Below, one piece after another: positions 56,324-64,000 of a stretch of 64,000 nt of DNA. The notes beneath the pieces were generated by a model. The model was not told the DNA's origin. It searched no databases and saw only the letters and a list, made by a program, of their open reading frames with translations. Source of the stretch: Natronococcus sp. AD-5. Its GTDB lineage: Archaea; Halobacteriota; Halobacteria; Halobacteriales; Natrialbaceae. The DNA lies in assembly GCF_030734285.1 (NCBI RefSeq), contig NZ_CP132295.1:372001-436000 (forward strand), given 5' to 3'. The position numbers and the translations under genes were made by a program. Positions within the stretch are counted from its first letter, which is position 1, and the number at the start of each line of letters is the position of its first letter.

Positions 56324-57076
56324 TCATGTGACGACCGTGAGGCGATCCGTTTCGAACGAGGATACGAGTCCTCGATCGAAACGCGAGGTGTGCTCGAGCG
56401 CGACCGACAGGACTTCTTCTGCGCGTCTTTCGAGGGCGGCATCGTCCGCTTTATTTATAAGCGGGACGACCGTGGCGTCGTCAGGGACGCGTTTCATTCC
56501 ACCGTCGGGATGAGCAAGCACCTGACCCACGACCGAGGGTGTGAGACGCTCTCCTTCGGAGATATCGGCGCACCGTTCGATTTGTTCGACGCGGTGAGCG
56601 ACGTCGTCCGCGAGCGGTTGACCGACGGCCTGAACGGACGCGACCGGAACGACGTATGTACTCCTCCGGGGAATCGGCGGTTCGTTCGGACCCGGCGCTT
56701 TACATTCGCGCATTCTGGCACCATCAGCCTTGACGAGAACCCAGTCGAAGTAGCCGTCTCTAAACATCGAACTCAGGACGGCGGGCTGGAACCCTCGAAC
56801 TTTGTCGTCGACACGGTCCGGATCTACCACTCGCTCACTCGCCAGTGCGACCGGCGGTGTGGTGTCGTCCAGATTGCTCTGAATGCGAGTAGGGTCGGCG
56901 AGAACGAGCGGGAGATCCGGGGGTGGCGGCATATGTACCGACGTGGTATAGCCCGCTTTGAGGCCACGGTCGCCCGCTTCGGCAATCAACTGGCTCATGG
57001 CGGTCTTCTTTCCGCCGGCGCCGACGAACGAGACGAGTTCTTCGTCCCCCAACCCGAGCGCATCGGCAAGATTCAT
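56324..57076 (-). CDS. yqeC: Selenium cofactor biosynthesis protein YqeC
   Basis: 250 aa. P-loop-like VSFVGAGGKKTAMSQLIAEA (GAGGKKTA at 19-26), then KAGYTTSVHMPPPPDLPLVL, LVKADGARMRECKAPGPNEP and PIPRRSTYVVPVASVQAVGQ, all characteristic of YqeC. It belongs to the third selenium-utilisation trait, the labile selenium cofactor of molybdenum hydroxylases. Divergent from the tusA-selD pair. Confidence 0.9.
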   Translation of the reverse strand: MNLADALGLGDEELVSFVGAGGKKTAMSQLIAEAGDRGLKAGYTTSVHMPPPPDLPLVLADPTRIQSNLDDTTPPVALASERVVDPDRVDDKVRGFQPAVLSSMFRDGYFDWVLVKADGARMRECKAPGPNEPPIPRRSTYVVPVASVQAVGQPLADDVAHRVEQIERCADISEGERLTPSVVGQVLAHPDGGMKRVPDDATVVPLINKADDAALERRAEEVLSVALEHTSRFDRGLVSSFETDRLTVVT

Positions 57077-57171
57077 ATCCGCACCTCACTGCCCGACGAA
57101 ATGAGGGTTACGACGAGAAACGTCCTCCGTGGACGGTAACGACACCTCCACGAAACTCAGTGTCGGCGATA

Positions 57172-57179
57172 CAATTATT
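57172..57179 (+). promoter_or_regulatory. TATA element of the tusA-selD operon
   Basis: CAATTATT centred about 28 bp before ATG 57203, implying a leaderless transcript. Confidence 0.5.
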
Positions 57180-57202
57180 CGGGCAGGCTATCTAGGTTCC
57201 GT

Positions 57203-57463
57203 ATGGAACGTGTGGACGTCACCGGTGAAGTGTGTCCGCGTCCCGTTCTCATCGTCCGGCGACGGCTGTCTGAACTCGATCGGGATGATGAACTGCTCGT
57301 TCGTGGGGACTATCCGCCGGCCGAAAGCAATCTTCGTCGAACGTGCACGAAACACGGATACGAAGTCGAGGGCCGACCAGCCTCCGAAGGGGGAGATGGC
57401 GGCTTCGAGTTGCTCATTCGTCCAACCGCTGACGCGAGCCGGTCGGAGGCGGACAATGAGTGA
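57203..57463 (+). CDS. TusA/SirA-family sulfur-carrier protein
   Basis: 86 aa. Family signature CPRPVLIVRRRLSELD with the persulfide Cys11 (CPxP), then DDELLVRGDYPPAESNLRRT. Overlaps selD by 8 bp. TusA proteins pass persulfide sulfur; YedF-like members pair with selenium metabolism. Here the neighbour SelD suggests it may hand selenium or sulfur onward to DsrE, whose gene is on the opposite strand. Confidence 0.88.
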   Translation: MERVDVTGEVCPRPVLIVRRRLSELDRDDELLVRGDYPPAESNLRRTCTKHGYEVEGRPASEGGDGGFELLIRPTADASRSEADNE

Positions 57464-58484
57464 CGAGGGGGACGATCACTGGCCAGCACTGACCGAATAT
57501 GCGGAGCTCCACGGCTGTTCGTGTAAGGTCGAACAGGGCGAACTCGAATCGCTGCTCACGGACGTCGGTTTGACGGGAGCACAACAGGAACTGCGTTTCG
57601 GCGTCGGTGAGGACGCGAGCGCCCGTGCGATCGCCGACGATCTCTGCCTCGTGACGACGATCGATTTCTTCACGCCGATCGTGGACGATCCGTACGAATT
57701 CGGCCGCGTTGCCGCGTGCAACGCGGCAAGCGACGCCTTTGCAACGGGCGCCGGCGACGATCTGACGTTCCTGGTCGTTCTCGGCCTCCCGCAAGAGGTG
57801 ACGGACGCCGCCGCCGAAATTTTACGCGGTATCGTCGACGCGGTTGACGAAATGGGCGGCGTCGTCGCGGGTGGACATACGATCATGAACCCGTGGCCGA
57901 TCGCCGGCGGAACTGTTGTCGCGACCGCGCCGCCGGAGGATCTTCTGCAGACGAGCGATGCATCGCCGTCCGAGCGACTGTACCTGACGAAGCCCCTCGG
58001 TACTCAGCCAGCGATGGGCGCATTGCGGGTCCGAGACGGAGAGTTCGGCGAAACGATCGGAGAGGCGTCTAACCGACCCGTTCAGGATATCGCTGATGAG
58101 GCGCTCGCGTGGATGACAACCCCGAACAGGGATGCGATGCTCGCAGCCCGCGAGTTTGCGACCGCCGCGACCGATATCACGGGGTTTGGCCTTCTCGGGC
58201 AAGCGCGTCTCCTCGCCGAGAACGCTGGCGTCGGCGTCGAACTCGCTCACCTCCCCGTCATCGACGGCAGCCTCGAACTCTCGCGGCTCTTCGGCTACGG
58301 CCTCGAGGACGGCGAGAGCGCCGAGACGAGCGGTGGACTACTGGTGTCGGTACCGGAACGCCACACTGAGGCCGTCGAAACCGCCTTCTCGGATGCCGAC
58401 GTCTTCCACCGCGAGGTCGGCCGTGTCACGACCGGCTCCGGCGTCGCGCTCGTCGACCCTACGATAGAACGAGTTCGCGGATAG
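57456..58484 (+). CDS. selD: Selenide, water dikinase (selenophosphate synthase)
   Basis: 342 aa from MSDEGDDHWPALTEYAELHG. Catalytic motif GCSCK (Cys21, Lys24; E. coli Cys17 and Lys20), then GVGEDASARAIADDLCLVTT, DFFTPIVDDPYEFGRVAACN, GGHTIMNPWPIAGGTVVATA and ITGFGLLGQARLLAE. It makes selenophosphate from selenide and ATP. No SelA, SelB or SECIS-like partner lies here, so the product is presumably for the molybdenum hydroxylase cofactor. A 109-codon upstream extension covers tusA in another frame and is rejected. Confidence 0.96.
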   Translation: MSDEGDDHWPALTEYAELHGCSCKVEQGELESLLTDVGLTGAQQELRFGVGEDASARAIADDLCLVTTIDFFTPIVDDPYEFGRVAACNAASDAFATGAGDDLTFLVVLGLPQEVTDAAAEILRGIVDAVDEMGGVVAGGHTIMNPWPIAGGTVVATAPPEDLLQTSDASPSERLYLTKPLGTQPAMGALRVRDGEFGETIGEASNRPVQDIADEALAWMTTPNRDAMLAAREFATAATDITGFGLLGQARLLAENAGVGVELAHLPVIDGSLELSRLFGYGLEDGESAETSGGLLVSVPERHTEAVETAFSDADVFHREVGRVTTGSGVALVDPTIERVRG

Positions 58485-58528
58485 CTGTCACCGCCGTCGA
58501 CTGCAAACGGCAGGCGTGTGAACGGCTG

Positions 58529-60106
58529 CTACGAGAGCTTGAGCACTGCCTCGAGAACGCCACCGCCGAGGCAGAGCGCTTTGTCGGATATTTTCGTGTA
58601 ATCGACCGCTTCGCGGGGATCGATGTCGCCGAGTTTTGCGTTCGGTGAAACGGAAACACCATCGTGGACGAGTCCCCGTACGAGCCCTCCTATCTCCGTA
58701 ACGACCGGATCGTCGTCGACGTAGCCGACGGTCGCATCTGCTTCGACGACCTCCCCGATTTCGACCGACGGTGACCAGCTTCCTTCGCTCGGCGCTCGGA
58801 GAACGCGCTCGTGAGTGTACCCCCGCCGTTCACCGGGTTCGCCGTCGTACGGACTCGGTTTGCCATCGTAGATGACGCGCCCGAGTTCGTGGCCCCGATC
58901 GGTTTCGACGACCGCGTCCACGTTCTCGCCGGCCTCGAATCCCGGTCCGAGACCGACGACGACATCCGCGAGATCCTTCCGGGTCCCGGTGTCCGTCTTG
59001 CCTTTCGCCATAATCGCGTCGACGACCGCCCCGGGCTCGAGTTCATCGATGACGGCGGCGTTTGGGTCCTCGAGCACCGGTACCGCATCGTCGGCCAGGA
59101 CGGCGAGGGCGTCGTCCACGTCGTGGACGCGCTGGCCCGTCACGCCCTGGACGGTGACCGTCTCCTCGTACATCGCCGTCGCGAAGGCGACCTCGCGGCG
59201 GACGACGGTCGGCCGAGCCACCTCGGTTACGATAACCGGAAACCCTGCCTGGTGGAGACGATAGCCCACGCCGGTTCCGAGATCCCCGCCGCCTCGAAGG
59301 ACGACGAGATCCTCGTGATCGTGTCGGGTTGCACGCTCCCCGGTCACACCGTGACGATCACGATGCATCTCTGCGAGAATCGAGAGAGCGACGTCCTCGG
59401 GCCCGCCTCCACCGAGATCGAGTCCGACAGGGGAACGAACGCGAACGAGGTCCCGGCGCGAGTACCCGTCTTCGAGCAGCGAATCGAAAATGTGCGCTGC
59501 TTTGTCTTCGCTGGCGACGACGCCGACGTAACCGGCACCGCCGTCGAGTGCAGCGGCGACGGCCTGCTGGTCGAACGTTCCGCTCCGCGTCGCGACGGCA
59601 ACCGCCGTTTCCGACGTCATCGGGAGTTCGGAAAGCGCCTCGTCGTAGTCGCCGTGAATGGTGTCGGTCCCCGCGGGAAACCGATCCGGTGACGCGTACC
59701 CTTCGCGGTCGTCTACGACGGTGATGTCGTAGCCGAGTCGGTCGCCTATCGCCGCGAGTTCGACCGCGATGTGTCCGCCGCCCGCAACGTAAAGGCGCGA
59801 GCGGCCCCGGATTCGGTCGATGAAGACGTCCATAGAGCCGCCGCAGACCATGCCGGTATTACCCCCGGGACGCAGTTCGTAGGTCCGCACGCCAGGCTCG
59901 GCGTCGCCCCGGAGGATCTCACGGGCTTCATCGATAGCGAGGCTTTCGACCGTCCCGCCGCCGATCGTGCCGTACTCGTCCTCTTCGGTCACGAGCATTT
60001 TCGCCCCCACGTCTCGCGGCGCGCTTCCGTTTTTGTCTACGACCGTCAACATCGTCGCCGGTCGGCCCTGTTTGACGAGTACGTCCACGCGATCGAAGAG
60101 CGTCAT
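58529..60106 (-). CDS. XdhC-YqeB fusion, molybdenum hydroxylase maturation protein
   Basis: 525 aa. Residues 1-260 form XdhC/CoxI: LTVVDKNGSAPRDVGAKMLV, GTIGGGTVESLAIDEAREIL, Rossmann LYVAGGGHIAVELAAIGDRL, VGVVASEDKAAHIFDSLLED. Residues 266-525 form YqeB (EF2563 type): LVVLRGGGDLGTGVGYRLHQ, AGFPVIVTEVARPTVVRREV, VGLGPGFEAGENVDAVVETD. XdhC inserts and sulfurates molybdenum cofactor; YqeB is the diagnostic marker of selenium-dependent molybdenum hydroxylases. The two halves are usually separate proteins. Overlaps the DsrH gene by 4 bp, so it ends the DsrEFH operon. Confidence 0.9.
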   Translation of the reverse strand: MTLFDRVDVLVKQGRPATMLTVVDKNGSAPRDVGAKMLVTEEDEYGTIGGGTVESLAIDEAREILRGDAEPGVRTYELRPGGNTGMVCGGSMDVFIDRIRGRSRLYVAGGGHIAVELAAIGDRLGYDITVVDDREGYASPDRFPAGTDTIHGDYDEALSELPMTSETAVAVATRSGTFDQQAVAAALDGGAGYVGVVASEDKAAHIFDSLLEDGYSRRDLVRVRSPVGLDLGGGGPEDVALSILAEMHRDRHGVTGERATRHDHEDLVVLRGGGDLGTGVGYRLHQAGFPVIVTEVARPTVVRREVAFATAMYEETVTVQGVTGQRVHDVDDALAVLADDAVPVLEDPNAAVIDELEPGAVVDAIMAKGKTDTGTRKDLADVVVGLGPGFEAGENVDAVVETDRGHELGRVIYDGKPSPYDGEPGERRGYTHERVLRAPSEGSWSPSVEIGEVVEADATVGYVDDDPVVTEIGGLVRGLVHDGVSVSPNAKLGDIDPREAVDYTKISDKALCLGGGVLEAVLKLS

Positions 60107-60354
60107 ACGAAACTTTTCACCTCGTGTTCGACCACGAGCTCGATCAGTTTGTCGTACGTGACGGTGTCGATCCGATCGGGGAGGGTAACGCCGCGCATCT
60201 CGACGTCCCGTTCGACAGCGATCGTTGGTGCCTCGAGATCCGGATCGAGTAGGACGCCGTCCTGTATCAGGACGACGGTTCCGTCGGTGTCGGTCGCTGC
60301 TGTTCTGAGTCCGATCTCCGCCATCGGTTCGTCTATCAGATAGAGCATCGTCAA
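60103..60354 (-). CDS. DsrH/TusB-family sulfur relay protein
   Basis: 83 aa. DsrH-like fold: MLYLIDEPMAEIGLRTAATD, TVVLIQDGVLLDPDLE. The cysteine used by some DsrH proteins is absent. Third gene of a DsrE-DsrF-DsrH run with 4-bp overlaps; ends overlapping the XdhC-YqeB start. Confidence 0.75.
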   Translation of the reverse strand: MTMLYLIDEPMAEIGLRTAATDTDGTVVLIQDGVLLDPDLEAPTIAVERDVEMRGVTLPDRIDTVTYDKLIELVVEHEVKSFV

Positions 60355-60704
60355 AAGTCGAGCGTGTGATCCGCCCGTTCGATCGTCGACGCGATCTCCT
60401 CGCCGGTCTGGATACCGACGTCAGGGGCGATCTCCTCGGGCGCGACGTCTCGTACTGTCATCGATTCCCCATCGACGAATAGTTCCCCATCTTCCGCAGC
60501 CAGATCGATGAGGTGGTCCGTCATATTGAGCGCGTCCCGGTCGACGTCCGCACGAGCGGCGTAGACACCGTCCTGAGTGAACACGACTGAGACGTTGTGC
60601 CGATCGAAGCCGGCCGCGACGCCGCGCGCTACCCGGAGTCCCTCGGGGACGTGTACTCGTCCATACGGGGCTCGCGTGAGCATGACGACGACGTCCCGTT
60701 TCAT
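60351..60704 (-). CDS. DsrF/TusC-family sulfur relay protein
   Basis: 117 aa, MKRDVVVMLTRAPYGRVHVP, RVARGVAAGFDRHNVSVVFT, QDGVYAARADVDRDALNMTD. It has no Cys, like other structural TusC subunits. Overlaps its neighbours by 4 bp on both sides; forms a heterohexamer with DsrE and DsrH in characterised systems. Confidence 0.78.
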   Translation of the reverse strand: MKRDVVVMLTRAPYGRVHVPEGLRVARGVAAGFDRHNVSVVFTQDGVYAARADVDRDALNMTDHLIDLAAEDGELFVDGESMTVRDVAPEEIAPDVGIQTGEEIASTIERADHTLDF

Positions 60705-61072
60705 AGCGAGATCACCCTGTCGGCCTCGCCGAGCGTGTCCGCGAGATCGGGAAGTAAGCCGACCTCGACGCTGTCCGGATAATCGGTTTCGGCGTCGATG
60801 CCCCGAGCGCTGACACAGAGACCGCAGCAGATCACTTCTGCACCGTCAGCTATCAACTCCTGAAATTTCTCCGTCGGCATCTCATCGAACAGTCCCGCTT
60901 CCGAACAGTCGGGAAGACGCTGGTCGGATACTGGAACGTACGCGCCGTCGAGATAGTGAAAATACGTGACCTCGTGGCCGGCGTCGAGCGCCGCACGGCC
61001 GAGCTCGTAGGCGGTACGCCACCGTTCGCTGTCGAAGGGACCGCCGGTGAGCAAGAATCCGACGTGGATCAT
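60701..61072 (-). CDS. DsrE/TusD-family sulfur relay protein
   Basis: 123 aa. MIHVGFLLTGGPFDSERWRT, YELGRAALDAGHEVTYFHYL, and the active-site loop EVICCGLCVSARG (Cys82, Cys83, Cys86), containing the acceptor cysteine that receives persulfide from TusA in TusD. Promoter TATA TTATTATAG at about 61094-61102 (minus strand) gives a leaderless start. First gene of the operon ending with the XdhC-YqeB fusion. Confidence 0.82.
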   Translation of the reverse strand: MIHVGFLLTGGPFDSERWRTAYELGRAALDAGHEVTYFHYLDGAYVPVSDQRLPDCSEAGLFDEMPTEKFQELIADGAEVICCGLCVSARGIDAETDYPDSVEVGLLPDLADTLGEADRVISL

Positions 61073-61164: not shown

Positions 61165-62835
61165 TCACTCGATCACGACATCGACGTGGTCCCAGCGTTC
61201 GACGTCTACCAGCCCCCGATTCGTCAGCCGATACTCGGGGATCACCTCGAGGGCGAGGAACGAGAGGGTCATCAGTCCGTGGCGGTCGAGACCGAGGTCT
61301 CTCGCCCGATCGATGACCGCTTTGAATCGTTCGCAGACGTCAGTCAACGGATCGTCGGACATCAGCCCCGCGACCGGGAGCGGCACCGCTGTGATCGCCT
61401 CTTCCTCCAGGGTCGGATCGCAGACGGCGATGCCGCCGTCGATTTCCCGGAGATGGTTTGCGACTCGCGCCATCACATCGAACCTCGTGCCCGTGACGAC
61501 GCAGTTGTGTGCGTCGTGGGCGACCGTCGAACCGATCGCCCCGCGCGTAAGGCCGAGTCCGCGAACGAAGCCCCGACCGATACCGGCATCGCGATCGTGC
61601 CGTTCGATAACCACGATCGGTAGCACGTCTCCGTCGGGACTCGGCTCGATCGTCCCCTCAACGACGGGGAGCGACGCTTTCGTGCGTCCGGTCTGGATTC
61701 CCCCGGTAAGCTCGATAACGCGTACATCGGTTCGTCCCGATGCCGGATTCGGGGCGGTGAGCGCCAGGTCACGGCCCGCGACTGGATCGAAATTGACGGT
61801 GCCCGTCGAAAGCGCGGTCGGTGATGGATCGCGATCGCCGTTCGTCGGATCGAGCCGGCCGTCGATGAGAACGTGGTCGACGGTCCACGTCTCGAGGTCC
61901 TCGAGCAGCACCAGATCAGCCGGTGCACCGGGTTCGATCCGTCCGAACGGGAGATCGTAGCACTCCGCCGTATTCAGCGACGCCATCTGAACCGCCTCGA
62001 CCGGGTCGACCCCTTCTTCGATCGCTTTTCGGACCGCAAAGTCAACACCGCCGTTTTCGACCAGATCGACTACGTCTCGATCGTCCGAACACAGCGACAG
62101 CCGCCGCGTCGGGACGTCGTCGACGAGTCCGATGAGATCGGCAAGGTTCTTCGACGACGACCCCTCGCGCAGGTAGACTCGAAAGCCGAGGTCGACCTTC
62201 TCGCGAGCCTCGGCCTCGGAGATGCTCTCGTGATCGTTGTCGAGGTAACGCGCCGCTTCCTGCAGGTCCGATCCGGACACTCGCGGAAGGTGTCCATCGA
62301 CGGTGAGTCCACGCCCTCGGGCGGCCCGAATCTTCGCGTGCAGGTCCGACTCGCCCGAAAGGAGCGCTGGGAGGTCCATCACCTCACCGAGTGCGACGGC
62401 GTGTTCGTGATCGAGCAACTCCGCGACGTCGTCCGCGTCGAGCGCGGCACCGCCGTCTTGAAGGTTCGAAGCGGGAACGCTCGAGGGGACGCTAAATCGA
62501 ACCTTCAACGGCGTTTTCGTCGCGTCCTCGAAGACAGCACGGACGCCATTGACGCCGAGCACGTTCGCTATCTCGTGCGGATCGTGGATGATGCTGGTCA
62601 CGCCGCGTGGAACCATCGCTTCGCTGTACTGTGGCACGGTAACCATGCTCGATTCGACGTGCTTGTGGGCGTCGATCAGCCCAGGCGCAACGTATTCAGC
62701 CTCGAGTTCGCGGTCGGCTGGCCGCTCCTCGAGTGCGATTACTTCTCCACCGTCGATCGCAATTGCGCGGTCTTCGAGTACACCCGTGTTGACGTTGACG
62801 AGCGTTCCGCGAACGAGCGTATCGACGGTGTTCAC
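61165..62835 (-). CDS. ade: Adenine deaminase
   Basis: 556 aa from GTG at 62835; no ATG exists between the upstream in-frame stop and this codon. Amidohydrolase fold: VAPGLIDAHKHVESSMVTVP (metal HxH-type site), VTSIIHDPHEIANVLGVNGV, VDGHLPRVSGSDLQEAARYL, MASLNTAECYDLPFGRIEPG, and C-terminal GSTVAHDAHNCVVTGTRFDV. Converts adenine to hypoxanthine, which a xanthine dehydrogenase-type hydroxylase would oxidise. Sits between the maturation operon and a purine permease. Confidence 0.94.
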   Translation of the reverse strand: MNTVDTLVRGTLVNVNTGVLEDRAIAIDGGEVIALEERPADRELEAEYVAPGLIDAHKHVESSMVTVPQYSEAMVPRGVTSIIHDPHEIANVLGVNGVRAVFEDATKTPLKVRFSVPSSVPASNLQDGGAALDADDVAELLDHEHAVALGEVMDLPALLSGESDLHAKIRAARGRGLTVDGHLPRVSGSDLQEAARYLDNDHESISEAEAREKVDLGFRVYLREGSSSKNLADLIGLVDDVPTRRLSLCSDDRDVVDLVENGGVDFAVRKAIEEGVDPVEAVQMASLNTAECYDLPFGRIEPGAPADLVLLEDLETWTVDHVLIDGRLDPTNGDRDPSPTALSTGTVNFDPVAGRDLALTAPNPASGRTDVRVIELTGGIQTGRTKASLPVVEGTIEPSPDGDVLPIVVIERHDRDAGIGRGFVRGLGLTRGAIGSTVAHDAHNCVVTGTRFDVMARVANHLREIDGGIAVCDPTLEEEAITAVPLPVAGLMSDDPLTDVCERFKAVIDRARDLGLDRHGLMTLSFLALEVIPEYRLTNRGLVDVERWDHVDVVIE

Positions 62836-62944: not shown

Positions 62945-64000
62945 TTAGTCGTCTTCTCGAGGGACCGCAGGATCGGTGGGTGACGGTGCATCGTCCCCAT
63001 CGATCGGCTCTTCCAGGCCCGCCTCATATTCGCCGTCCGGACGCGGCACGAGCGTGTTCAGAAAGATCGCTGCTATCGCAGTCATGATCACCGCGTTGCC
63101 GAAGAAAATCTCGGCGCTTCCCGGCAGCGCCTCGAGTGCTTCGGGACGGAGTTCGACACCGAGCCCCAGTCCGATCGAGACCGCGATGATGACCATATTG
63201 CGACGGGTCATCCGTTCGTTGAGGAAGATGAGGCGGAGACCGCTCGACATCACCATTCCGAACATGACTAGTACGGCGCCGCCGAGGACGGAGTCGGGAA
63301 TCGTCGCGACCACTGCACTAACCTTCGGAATGAAGCCGAGTCCGAGCAAGACGACACCGCCGACTCCCACGACGTATCGGCTCATCACGCCGGTGAAGTT
63401 GATGATACCGACGTTCTGAGAGAAGGTCGTCAGGGGGAACGCACCGAAGATCCCACCGAGGGAACTCCCGAACCCGTCGACGAACAGGCCACCGCGAATT
63501 TCTTCGTGTTTGGGGTTACGGCCCTCCGCGGCTGTGATGCCGGACATATCTCCGACGGACTCGATCGCAGCCGTGATGAATAGCGCGGTGAACGTGAGGA
63601 TAGCAATCGGTTCGAAAGCGAACCCGAAGCGGCCGGGTACCGGGACCGCGAACCAGCCCGCTTCGGCGACCGGAGCGAAGTCGACGATCCCGATCGCGAT
63701 CGCCGCAACGTAGCCGACGACGATGCCGATCAGGATGCTGAGTATCCGCCAGATCCCATCCATGAACAGATTCATCCCGACGGTGATCGCTAGGACGAGA
63801 CCTGCAAGGCCGAGGTGGTACACCGCACCGTAATCAGGCGCTTCAGCCCCACCGGCGGCGTAGTCCATTCCGACCGGAATGAGGTAGAGACCGATGATCA
63901 TCACGATCAGGCCGGTTACCAGCGGCGGGAAAAACCGTTCGATCCGTTTGTACTGCCATCCGATGAGAACCTCGACGAGGGCGGCGATGACGATCGCACC
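62945..64000 (-). CDS. NCS2-family xanthine/uracil permease, 5' end outside window
   Basis: The frame is open from the window edge to TAA/TAG at 62945 (about 351 codons visible, N-terminus missing). NCS2 signatures: FPPLVTGLIVMIIG, LFITAAIESVGDMSGITAAE, and the cytoplasmic loop GGLFVDGFGSSLGGIFGAFP-LTTFSQNVGII. Polar C-terminal tail. With adenine deaminase directly downstream on the same strand, a purine substrate (xanthine, urate or adenine) is likely. Confidence 0.92.
   Translation of the reverse strand, partial: GAIVIAALVEVLIGWQYKRIERFFPPLVTGLIVMIIGLYLIPVGMDYAAGGAEAPDYGAVYHLGLAGLVLAITVGMNLFMDGIWRILSILIGIVVGYVAAIAIGIVDFAPVAEAGWFAVPVPGRFGFAFEPIAILTFTALFITAAIESVGDMSGITAAEGRNPKHEEIRGGLFVDGFGSSLGGIFGAFPLTTFSQNVGIINFTGVMSRYVVGVGGVVLLGLGFIPKVSAVVATIPDSVLGGAVLVMFGMVMSSGLRLIFLNERMTRRNMVIIAVSIGLGLGVELRPEALEALPGSAEIFFGNAVIMTAIAAIFLNTLVPRPDGEYEAGLEEPIDGDDAPSPTDPAVPREDD

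Follow-up and report, generated by a model that had tools for sequence, protein, structure and literature searches.

Of the routes by which selenium is incorporated, its entry into selenium-dependent molybdenum hydroxylases (SDMH) is considered the least understood (PMC11448449), and a locus of the haloarchaeon Natronococcus sp. AD-5 raises the question of why a complete set of dsrE, dsrF and dsrH genes (DsrEFH) should lie among the genes of this route. The locus was found in a stretch of 64,000 nucleotides (hereafter, the window; positions 372001-436000 of contig C2, one of two contigs of a 5.17 Mb genome), which also encodes SelD, YqeC, a TusA-like protein and an XdhC-YqeB fusion. From comparative analysis, we regard it as probable that this is the haloarchaeal form of the selenium-cofactor trait serving purine molybdenum hydroxylases, in which DsrEFH acts as a dedicated chalcogen-transfer component.

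The core of this locus has been described before. An orphan SelD together with YqeB, YqeC and a SirA-like protein was published in 2008 for Haloarcula marismortui, where the XdhC-YqeB fusion was already noted (PMC2276186, PMC2432076); a later paper gives Halobacteriales as the archaea with the selenium-cofactor trait (PMC5322559). As far as the accessible text of the 2008 papers goes, the SDMH trait, also present in Enterococcus faecalis, joins these four proteins to a molybdenum hydroxylase; the window has the core genes in the order known from H. marismortui pNG700, with XdhC domains in YqeB and molybdenum hydroxylases in the locus past the window end. Halobacteriales are reported to be devoid of selenocysteine machinery (PMC5322559), and SelU was not found in the window genome. 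The dsrEFH genes sit in the H. marismortui locus too (RR_RS03340-03350), and database records already assign such genes to the DsrE family and, in part, to the DsrH/TusB family. In the searchable text of the two 2008 papers, DsrE is absent from one, and in the other it appears only as the C-terminal domain of the SirA-like/YedF protein; likewise, the literature text searched, figures and subscription papers being outside its scope, holds no mention of dsrEFH in the setting of a selenium locus. Within that scope, the known part is the SelD/YqeB/YqeC/SirA-like core, and the addition made here is the DsrEFH set of its haloarchaeal version.

Distribution and order of the genes

Co-occurrence was surveyed in 391 haloarchaeal genomes evenly drawn out of a larger group, with YqeB and SelD judged by curated models and DsrE by a profile built on the window-type protein. 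This profile was chosen because the Pfam DsrH model (PF04077) is too insensitive for haloarchaeal DsrH, matching, as a class-wide probe, three genomes only, all within the positive set described below. YqeB scored above its curated cut-off in 30 of the 391 genomes, SelD was detected in 30 (238-277 bits; next best 97 bits), and the DsrE profile matched 30 (219-254 bits), followed by a 53-bit fragment and by scores of at most about 33 bits. The three sets are identical, comprising the same 30 genomes from nine genera, and the other 361 genomes have none of the three genes. An earlier note on this DNA had proposed a survey of DsrEFH against yqeB, yqeC and selD, and its expectation was borne out, since this DsrE never occurred in these haloarchaea without YqeB and SelD. 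In a plasmid collection, all 14 haloarchaeal plasmids with YqeB carried DsrE, and vice versa, and a scan of genome contigs added five further haloarchaeal genomes or metagenome-assembled genomes (MAGs) with the same gene set.

The arrangement of the genes is equally constant. In 30/30 loci dsrE, dsrF, dsrH and xdhC-yqeB follow one another without interruption, and selD, tusA and yqeC lie alongside (somewhat more distant in L062); this conservation across every YqeB-bearing genome indicates that the arrangement is not due to chance. In the window, where the earlier note had counted two overlapping-gene operons, we recognized three transcription units: yqeC alone on the minus strand, divergent from tusA; tusA-selD on the plus strand, overlapping by 8 nt; and dsrE-dsrF-dsrH-yqeB on the minus strand, joined by three 4-nt overlaps, converging on selD and ending 44 bp from its stop. 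The "fusion" of the locus to DsrEFH, claimed in the same note, holds for XdhC-YqeB only, the other genes being neighbours.

For the six other proteins of the locus, pairwise distances rise in step with those of YqeB (r 0.90-0.96), the pattern that a cassette inherited as a whole would give. The cassette is often located on plasmids or secondary replicons and is patchy within genera. Such mobility would also fit an account in which DsrEFH serves a sulfur or redox purpose of its own and merely travels with the selenium genes; we consider this very improbable, given that every YqeB locus has DsrEFH (30/30), that among the seven locus proteins DsrE is conserved best (86% mean pairwise identity), and that translational overlaps run through dsrEFH-yqeB. 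Because the haloarchaea surveyed have DsrEFH only where they have the selenium cluster, and nearly always within it, the complex is a probable missing component of the selenium-delivery machinery, and its dedication to the maturation of selenium-dependent hydroxylases seems very likely.

Active sites and sulfur-transfer relatives

Gene identities rest on NCBIfam and Pfam searches of the window proteins with curated cut-offs, and motif counts on orthologues from 30 genomes. The Dsr proteins fall under the NCBIfam equivalog cut-offs for TusB, TusC and TusD (27/49.2, 36/94 and 20/89 bits, respectively), and are therefore divergent homologues. In profile searches against PDB, DsrE matched DsrE/YchN structures, DsrF matched Allochromatium vinosum DsrF (2hy5_B, 4e-7), and DsrH matched TM0979 (1rhx, 2.6e-7). 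The DsrE motif CCGLC is present in 30/30 genomes, and its Cys83, conserved in 30/30, aligns with the catalytic cysteine of Escherichia coli TusD; the divergent loci L106, L113 and L114 keep CGLC, and L106 and L113 do not have the first cysteine. In YqeB, an SDKALC motif is conserved in 30/30.

Compared with the known DsrEFH (type I of A. vinosum, type II of cable bacteria) and TusBCD (E. coli) systems, the haloarchaeal set shares adjacent E, F and H genes, a TusD-type cysteine and a TusA partner. It differs in that DsrE has a CxxC where E. coli TusD has a single cysteine, in its scores under the equivalog cut-offs, and in its selenium-locus context without DsrA or MnmA. Furthermore, across the 30 orthologues neither DsrF nor DsrH has a conserved cysteine, and DsrH has none at all in 27/30. 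The A. vinosum complex binds sulfur at DsrE Cys78 and depends in vivo on DsrH Cys20 (PMC3397948); a counterpart of the latter is missing in haloarchaeal DsrH.

Homology and inherited database annotation (a Gene Ontology term) would suggest a canonical role, namely TusBCD for 2-thiouridine in transfer RNA (tRNA) or DsrEFH for sulfur oxidation. This is extremely improbable, and we rejected both functions, neither of which the earlier note had seen suggested: this DsrE is missing from 361/391 haloarchaea, MnmA was not found in the window genome (only partial PF03054 matches of 25 and 21 bits, in the ATP-PPase part), nor was DsrA (28 bits against a 393-bit cut-off), and the absence of MnmA, SelU and DsrA argues against either process.

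Among non-haloarchaeal proteins of the phylum sample, the best DsrE scores (about 40-58 bits) came from methanogens, whose DsrEFH (L187-L200, same phylum) has the E-F-H order and a CPRC or CARC DsrE, with CxxC in the corresponding position. We weighed this DsrE motif as a possible mark of selenium use and rejected it as unspecific, since methanogen and other haloarchaeal DsrE-like proteins share it. Stand-alone haloarchaeal DsrE-like proteins with CGTC were observed outside selenium loci at L103:4813-5136, L104:4489-4866 and L102:5335-5709.

Hydroxylases, cargo and direction of transfer

No molybdenum hydroxylase lies inside the window; two are encoded 3-8 kb past its end (Table 1). These were the only two PF02738 matches found in the window genome; their identities to the pair in the H. 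marismortui locus are 82% and 75%. The one large subunit scanned had XdhA as its best curated match (652 bits, cut-off 780). Of 35 loci, 26 have a molybdenum-hydroxylase large-subunit gene that precedes dsrE on the same strand, separated from it by 42-112 bp; this gene is annotated in the records of H. marismortui and Haloterrigena alkaliphila. Adenine deaminase takes this place, 92 bp upstream of dsrE and on the same strand, in the clade to which the window belongs (L004, L060, L063 and L064). Beyond the two hydroxylases of the window genome are a 5'-deoxyadenosine deaminase and an allantoate-amidohydrolase family enzyme, as well as an allantoinase relative and a relative of the selenium-associated SsnA, both under cut-off; taken together, the region has the look of a module for purine breakdown. 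The SsnA relative, a putative selenium metabolism protein, is located at L005:13543-14922 (270 of 455 bits).

The proximity of dsrEFH to hydroxylase genes, and the fact that characterised DsrEFH/TusBCD complexes move sulfur (PMC3397948, PMC13293266), would be compatible with a persulfide relay in which DsrEFH and TusA supply or protect the cofactor sulfur, selenium coming separately from SelD via YqeB. We consider this unlikely. When PF02738 hydroxylases were searched in the window genome and 39 relatives, 18 of the relatives had them, and at least ten of these, covered by the searches for the other proteins (G390, G248, G264, G132, G047, G116, G020, G204, G031 and G060), gave no strong match to DsrE, YqeB or SelD; DsrEFH is therefore not a general requirement of cofactor sulfuration. 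DsrE, moreover, tracks SelD exactly. A role of DsrEFH for molybdenum hydroxylases in general was rejected as well, since relatives with the enzymes but without the selenium genes lack DsrEFH. In the congener G130, ade and the permease are kept, dsrE is broken off after residue 34 (L101:2274-2513, G130:C102) and adjoins a less similar hydroxylase (62-66% identity), and neither YqeB nor SelD has a strong match in the genome; judged from sequence, this fits a selenium module that has apparently dropped out in nature as a unit.

For the selenium-delivery reading that we prefer, the following route can be envisaged. The TusA-like CPxP protein would receive or hold activated selenium, as perselenide or persulfide, and DsrEFH would take it onto DsrE Cys83 of the CGLC motif, to be handed on along a pathway through SelD (selenophosphate) and the XdhC-YqeB fusion; the latter would present the molybdopterin cytosine dinucleotide cofactor, destined for the xanthine-dehydrogenase-like enzymes of the neighbouring genes, with YqeC as a P-loop guanosine triphosphatase (GTPase) accessory. 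The tusA-selD overlap suggests that TusA acts before SelD, and the dsrEFH-yqeB unit that DsrEFH acts after it; XdhC-YqeB as acceptor, the order of steps and the contacts between partners are what we infer. Whether the moved atom is selenium is close to an even judgement, and it is with some reserve, a little short of evenly balanced, that we propose DsrEFH as a dedicated selenium-transfer complex, with TusA and DsrE Cys83 carrying perselenide for the labile molybdenum-selenium cofactor, which would make it the first DsrEFH/TusBCD member with a selenium job. The earlier note had drawn a similar selenium or sulfur delivery line; its functional link is strongly supported by identical genome sets, synteny and operon position, and its selenium cargo and XdhC-YqeB acceptor keep their conjectural status.

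Several published observations accord with this proposal. Transfer of persulfide from TusA to DsrE is established for a type II DsrEFH (PMC13293266). In Clostridioides difficile, selD and yqeB are required for selenium-dependent purine growth, and yqeC less clearly so (PMC11448449). We also count as support from another archaeon the response of Methanococcus maripaludis, in which TusA and TusD transcripts rise 4.5-4.6 log2-fold on selenium depletion, a rise for which, according to its authors, tRNA thiolation offers no obvious explanation (PMC11097638).

A variant of the preferred explanation differs in the direction of transfer. DsrEFH, with TusA, would act upstream of SelD, taking selenium from selenite or from a cysteine desulfurase or selenocysteine lyase and feeding selenide to SelD, as a split version of bacterial YedF serving general selenium acquisition. 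YedF (TIGR03527) is a bacterial TusA-DsrE fusion that associates with SelD across bacteria and is reported absent from archaea (PMC5322559); in E. faecalis it adjoins selD and selenocysteine lyase. The likeness lies in the TusA-like and DsrE-like parts, with CPxP and CGxC (haloarchaeal CGLC aligns with the CGAC of Enterococcus YedF), and in the neighbourhood of selD, which tusA overlaps in the window. In contrast to YedF, haloarchaea have separate genes plus DsrF and DsrH, and the TusA-like protein of the window reaches 31.7 bits against a YedF cut-off of 110. We judge this variant somewhat unlikely, as dsrEFH forms one unit with yqeB, and often with hydroxylase genes, and not with selD.

Against delivery of selenium by DsrEFH in the maturation step, the following points have to be weighed. 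Half of the 30 genomes (15) belong to one genus, so that they do not count as independent events, and a hypergeometric figure calculated for the overlap is nominal and no true probability. In a Halodesulfurarchaeum MAG (L113) dsrEFH is in the locus but does not adjoin yqeB. No DsrEFH was detected near bacterial YqeB loci in our scan, and a few of these had YedF; the complex is therefore not universally required for the trait. The methanogen CxxC-DsrEFH lies outside a selenium or YqeB context in the 3.3 kb covered and has no known selenium link. Moreover, sulfur could be what DsrE carries at this stage of maturation, and the literature text searched held no biochemical or genetic experiment in a haloarchaeon.

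For a poorly understood route, the haloarchaeal loci offer a new candidate, a three-subunit carrier tied to it by operon structure and exact co-occurrence. A defined active cysteine of DsrE is available for mutation, and the locus is plasmid-borne in species such as Haloarcula hispanica and H. marismortui.

Locus features, YqeC and other YqeB loci

YqeC has previously been described as a protein without known predicted domains. Its AlphaFold2 model (predicted local distance difference test score, pLDDT, 95.5) has as closest PDB structures the signal recognition particle (SRP)/FtsY, MeaB and MinD proteins (Z 12.9-11), with 175 residues aligned to the SRP GTPase at a root-mean-square deviation of 3.3 (Z 12.9). 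It also contains a GAGGK Walker A and an NKxD G4-like motif (GxGGK in 30/30, NKxD in 29/30), and is thus predicted to be a SIMIBI-class P-loop GTPase. On the basis of these matches to SRP-type, MeaB and MinD nucleoside triphosphatases, we propose a GTPase role in cofactor insertion, a shared fold being no proof of it; the predicted fold provides a second testable handle, on this protein. For XdhC-YqeB (pLDDT 88.5), which carries both XdhC domains (PF02625 and PF13478), Foldseek was convincing for the XdhC half only, matching solved XdhC structures of the Rv0376c family and BH1974. A blastn search of yqeB against E. coli gave no match.

The proteins listed in the earlier note, YqeC, the CPxP TusA-like protein, SelD with cysteine, XdhC-YqeB, DsrE, DsrF and DsrH, were all recovered where it had placed them, and SelD, YqeB and YqeC, its trait set, score above curated cut-offs (Table 1). 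The TusA-like protein falls under both the TusA and the YedF equivalog cut-offs. A longer open reading frame from GTG 57129, given in a mechanical list, was rejected as the selD gene start.

Table 1. Positions in the window (or, where indicated, in L004/L005) of the genes and motifs discussed
Feature	Position	Strand	Evidence
yqeC, selenium-cofactor accessory protein	56324-57076	-	TIGR03172, 178 bits (cut-off 73), 2e-52
tusA-like carrier (SirA/YedF-N-terminal-like)	57203-57463	+	PF01206, 57 bits, 1.9e-15
TusA-like CPRP motif	57233-57244	+	CPxP in 30/30 orthologues
selD, selenophosphate synthetase with Cys	57456-58484	+	TIGR00476, 254 bits (cut-off 125), 1.6e-75
SelD active site CSCK	57516-57527	+	kept in 30/30
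xdhC-yqeB fusion, hydroxylase cofactor maturation factor	58529-60106	-	TIGR03309, 338 bits (cut-off 220), 3.5e-101
dsrH/tusB-like, TTG start	60103-60354	-	PF04077, 24.8 bits (cut-off 24.4)
dsrF/tusC-like	60351-60704	-	PF02635, 40 bits, 3.8e-10
dsrE/tusD-like with CCGLC	60701-61072	-	PF02635, 69 bits (cut-off 22.7), 5.6e-19
DsrE CGLC codons (residues 83-86)	60815-60826	-	sequence
ade, adenine deaminase	61165-62835	-	TIGR01178, 470 bits (cut-off 472.5)
pbuX-like xanthine/NCS2 permease	62945-64000	-	TIGR03173, 2.9e-89; runs beyond window end, 463 aa in L004
hydroxylase 1, [2Fe-2S] and large subunit	L004 13927-16894
hydroxylase 2, [2Fe-2S] and large subunit	L004 17061 to about 20065, across L004/L005

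Outside haloarchaea, YqeB-like genes 51-55% identical to that of the window were observed in MAGs that are mostly Chloroflexi (L117-L119, L121, L122, L146, L151 and L152). Within the retrieved flanks of these loci, SelD, YqeC and a hydroxylase gave no match, so that YqeB may have a role there without its usual partners, or the partners may lie elsewhere. Finally, the Archaeoglobi MAG JdFR-42 (L162) encodes YqeB with MocA and a molybdenum hydroxylase, with no SelD or DsrEFH in the retrieved stretch, and Archaeoglobi are thus a candidate second archaeal lineage for the selenium-cofactor trait.

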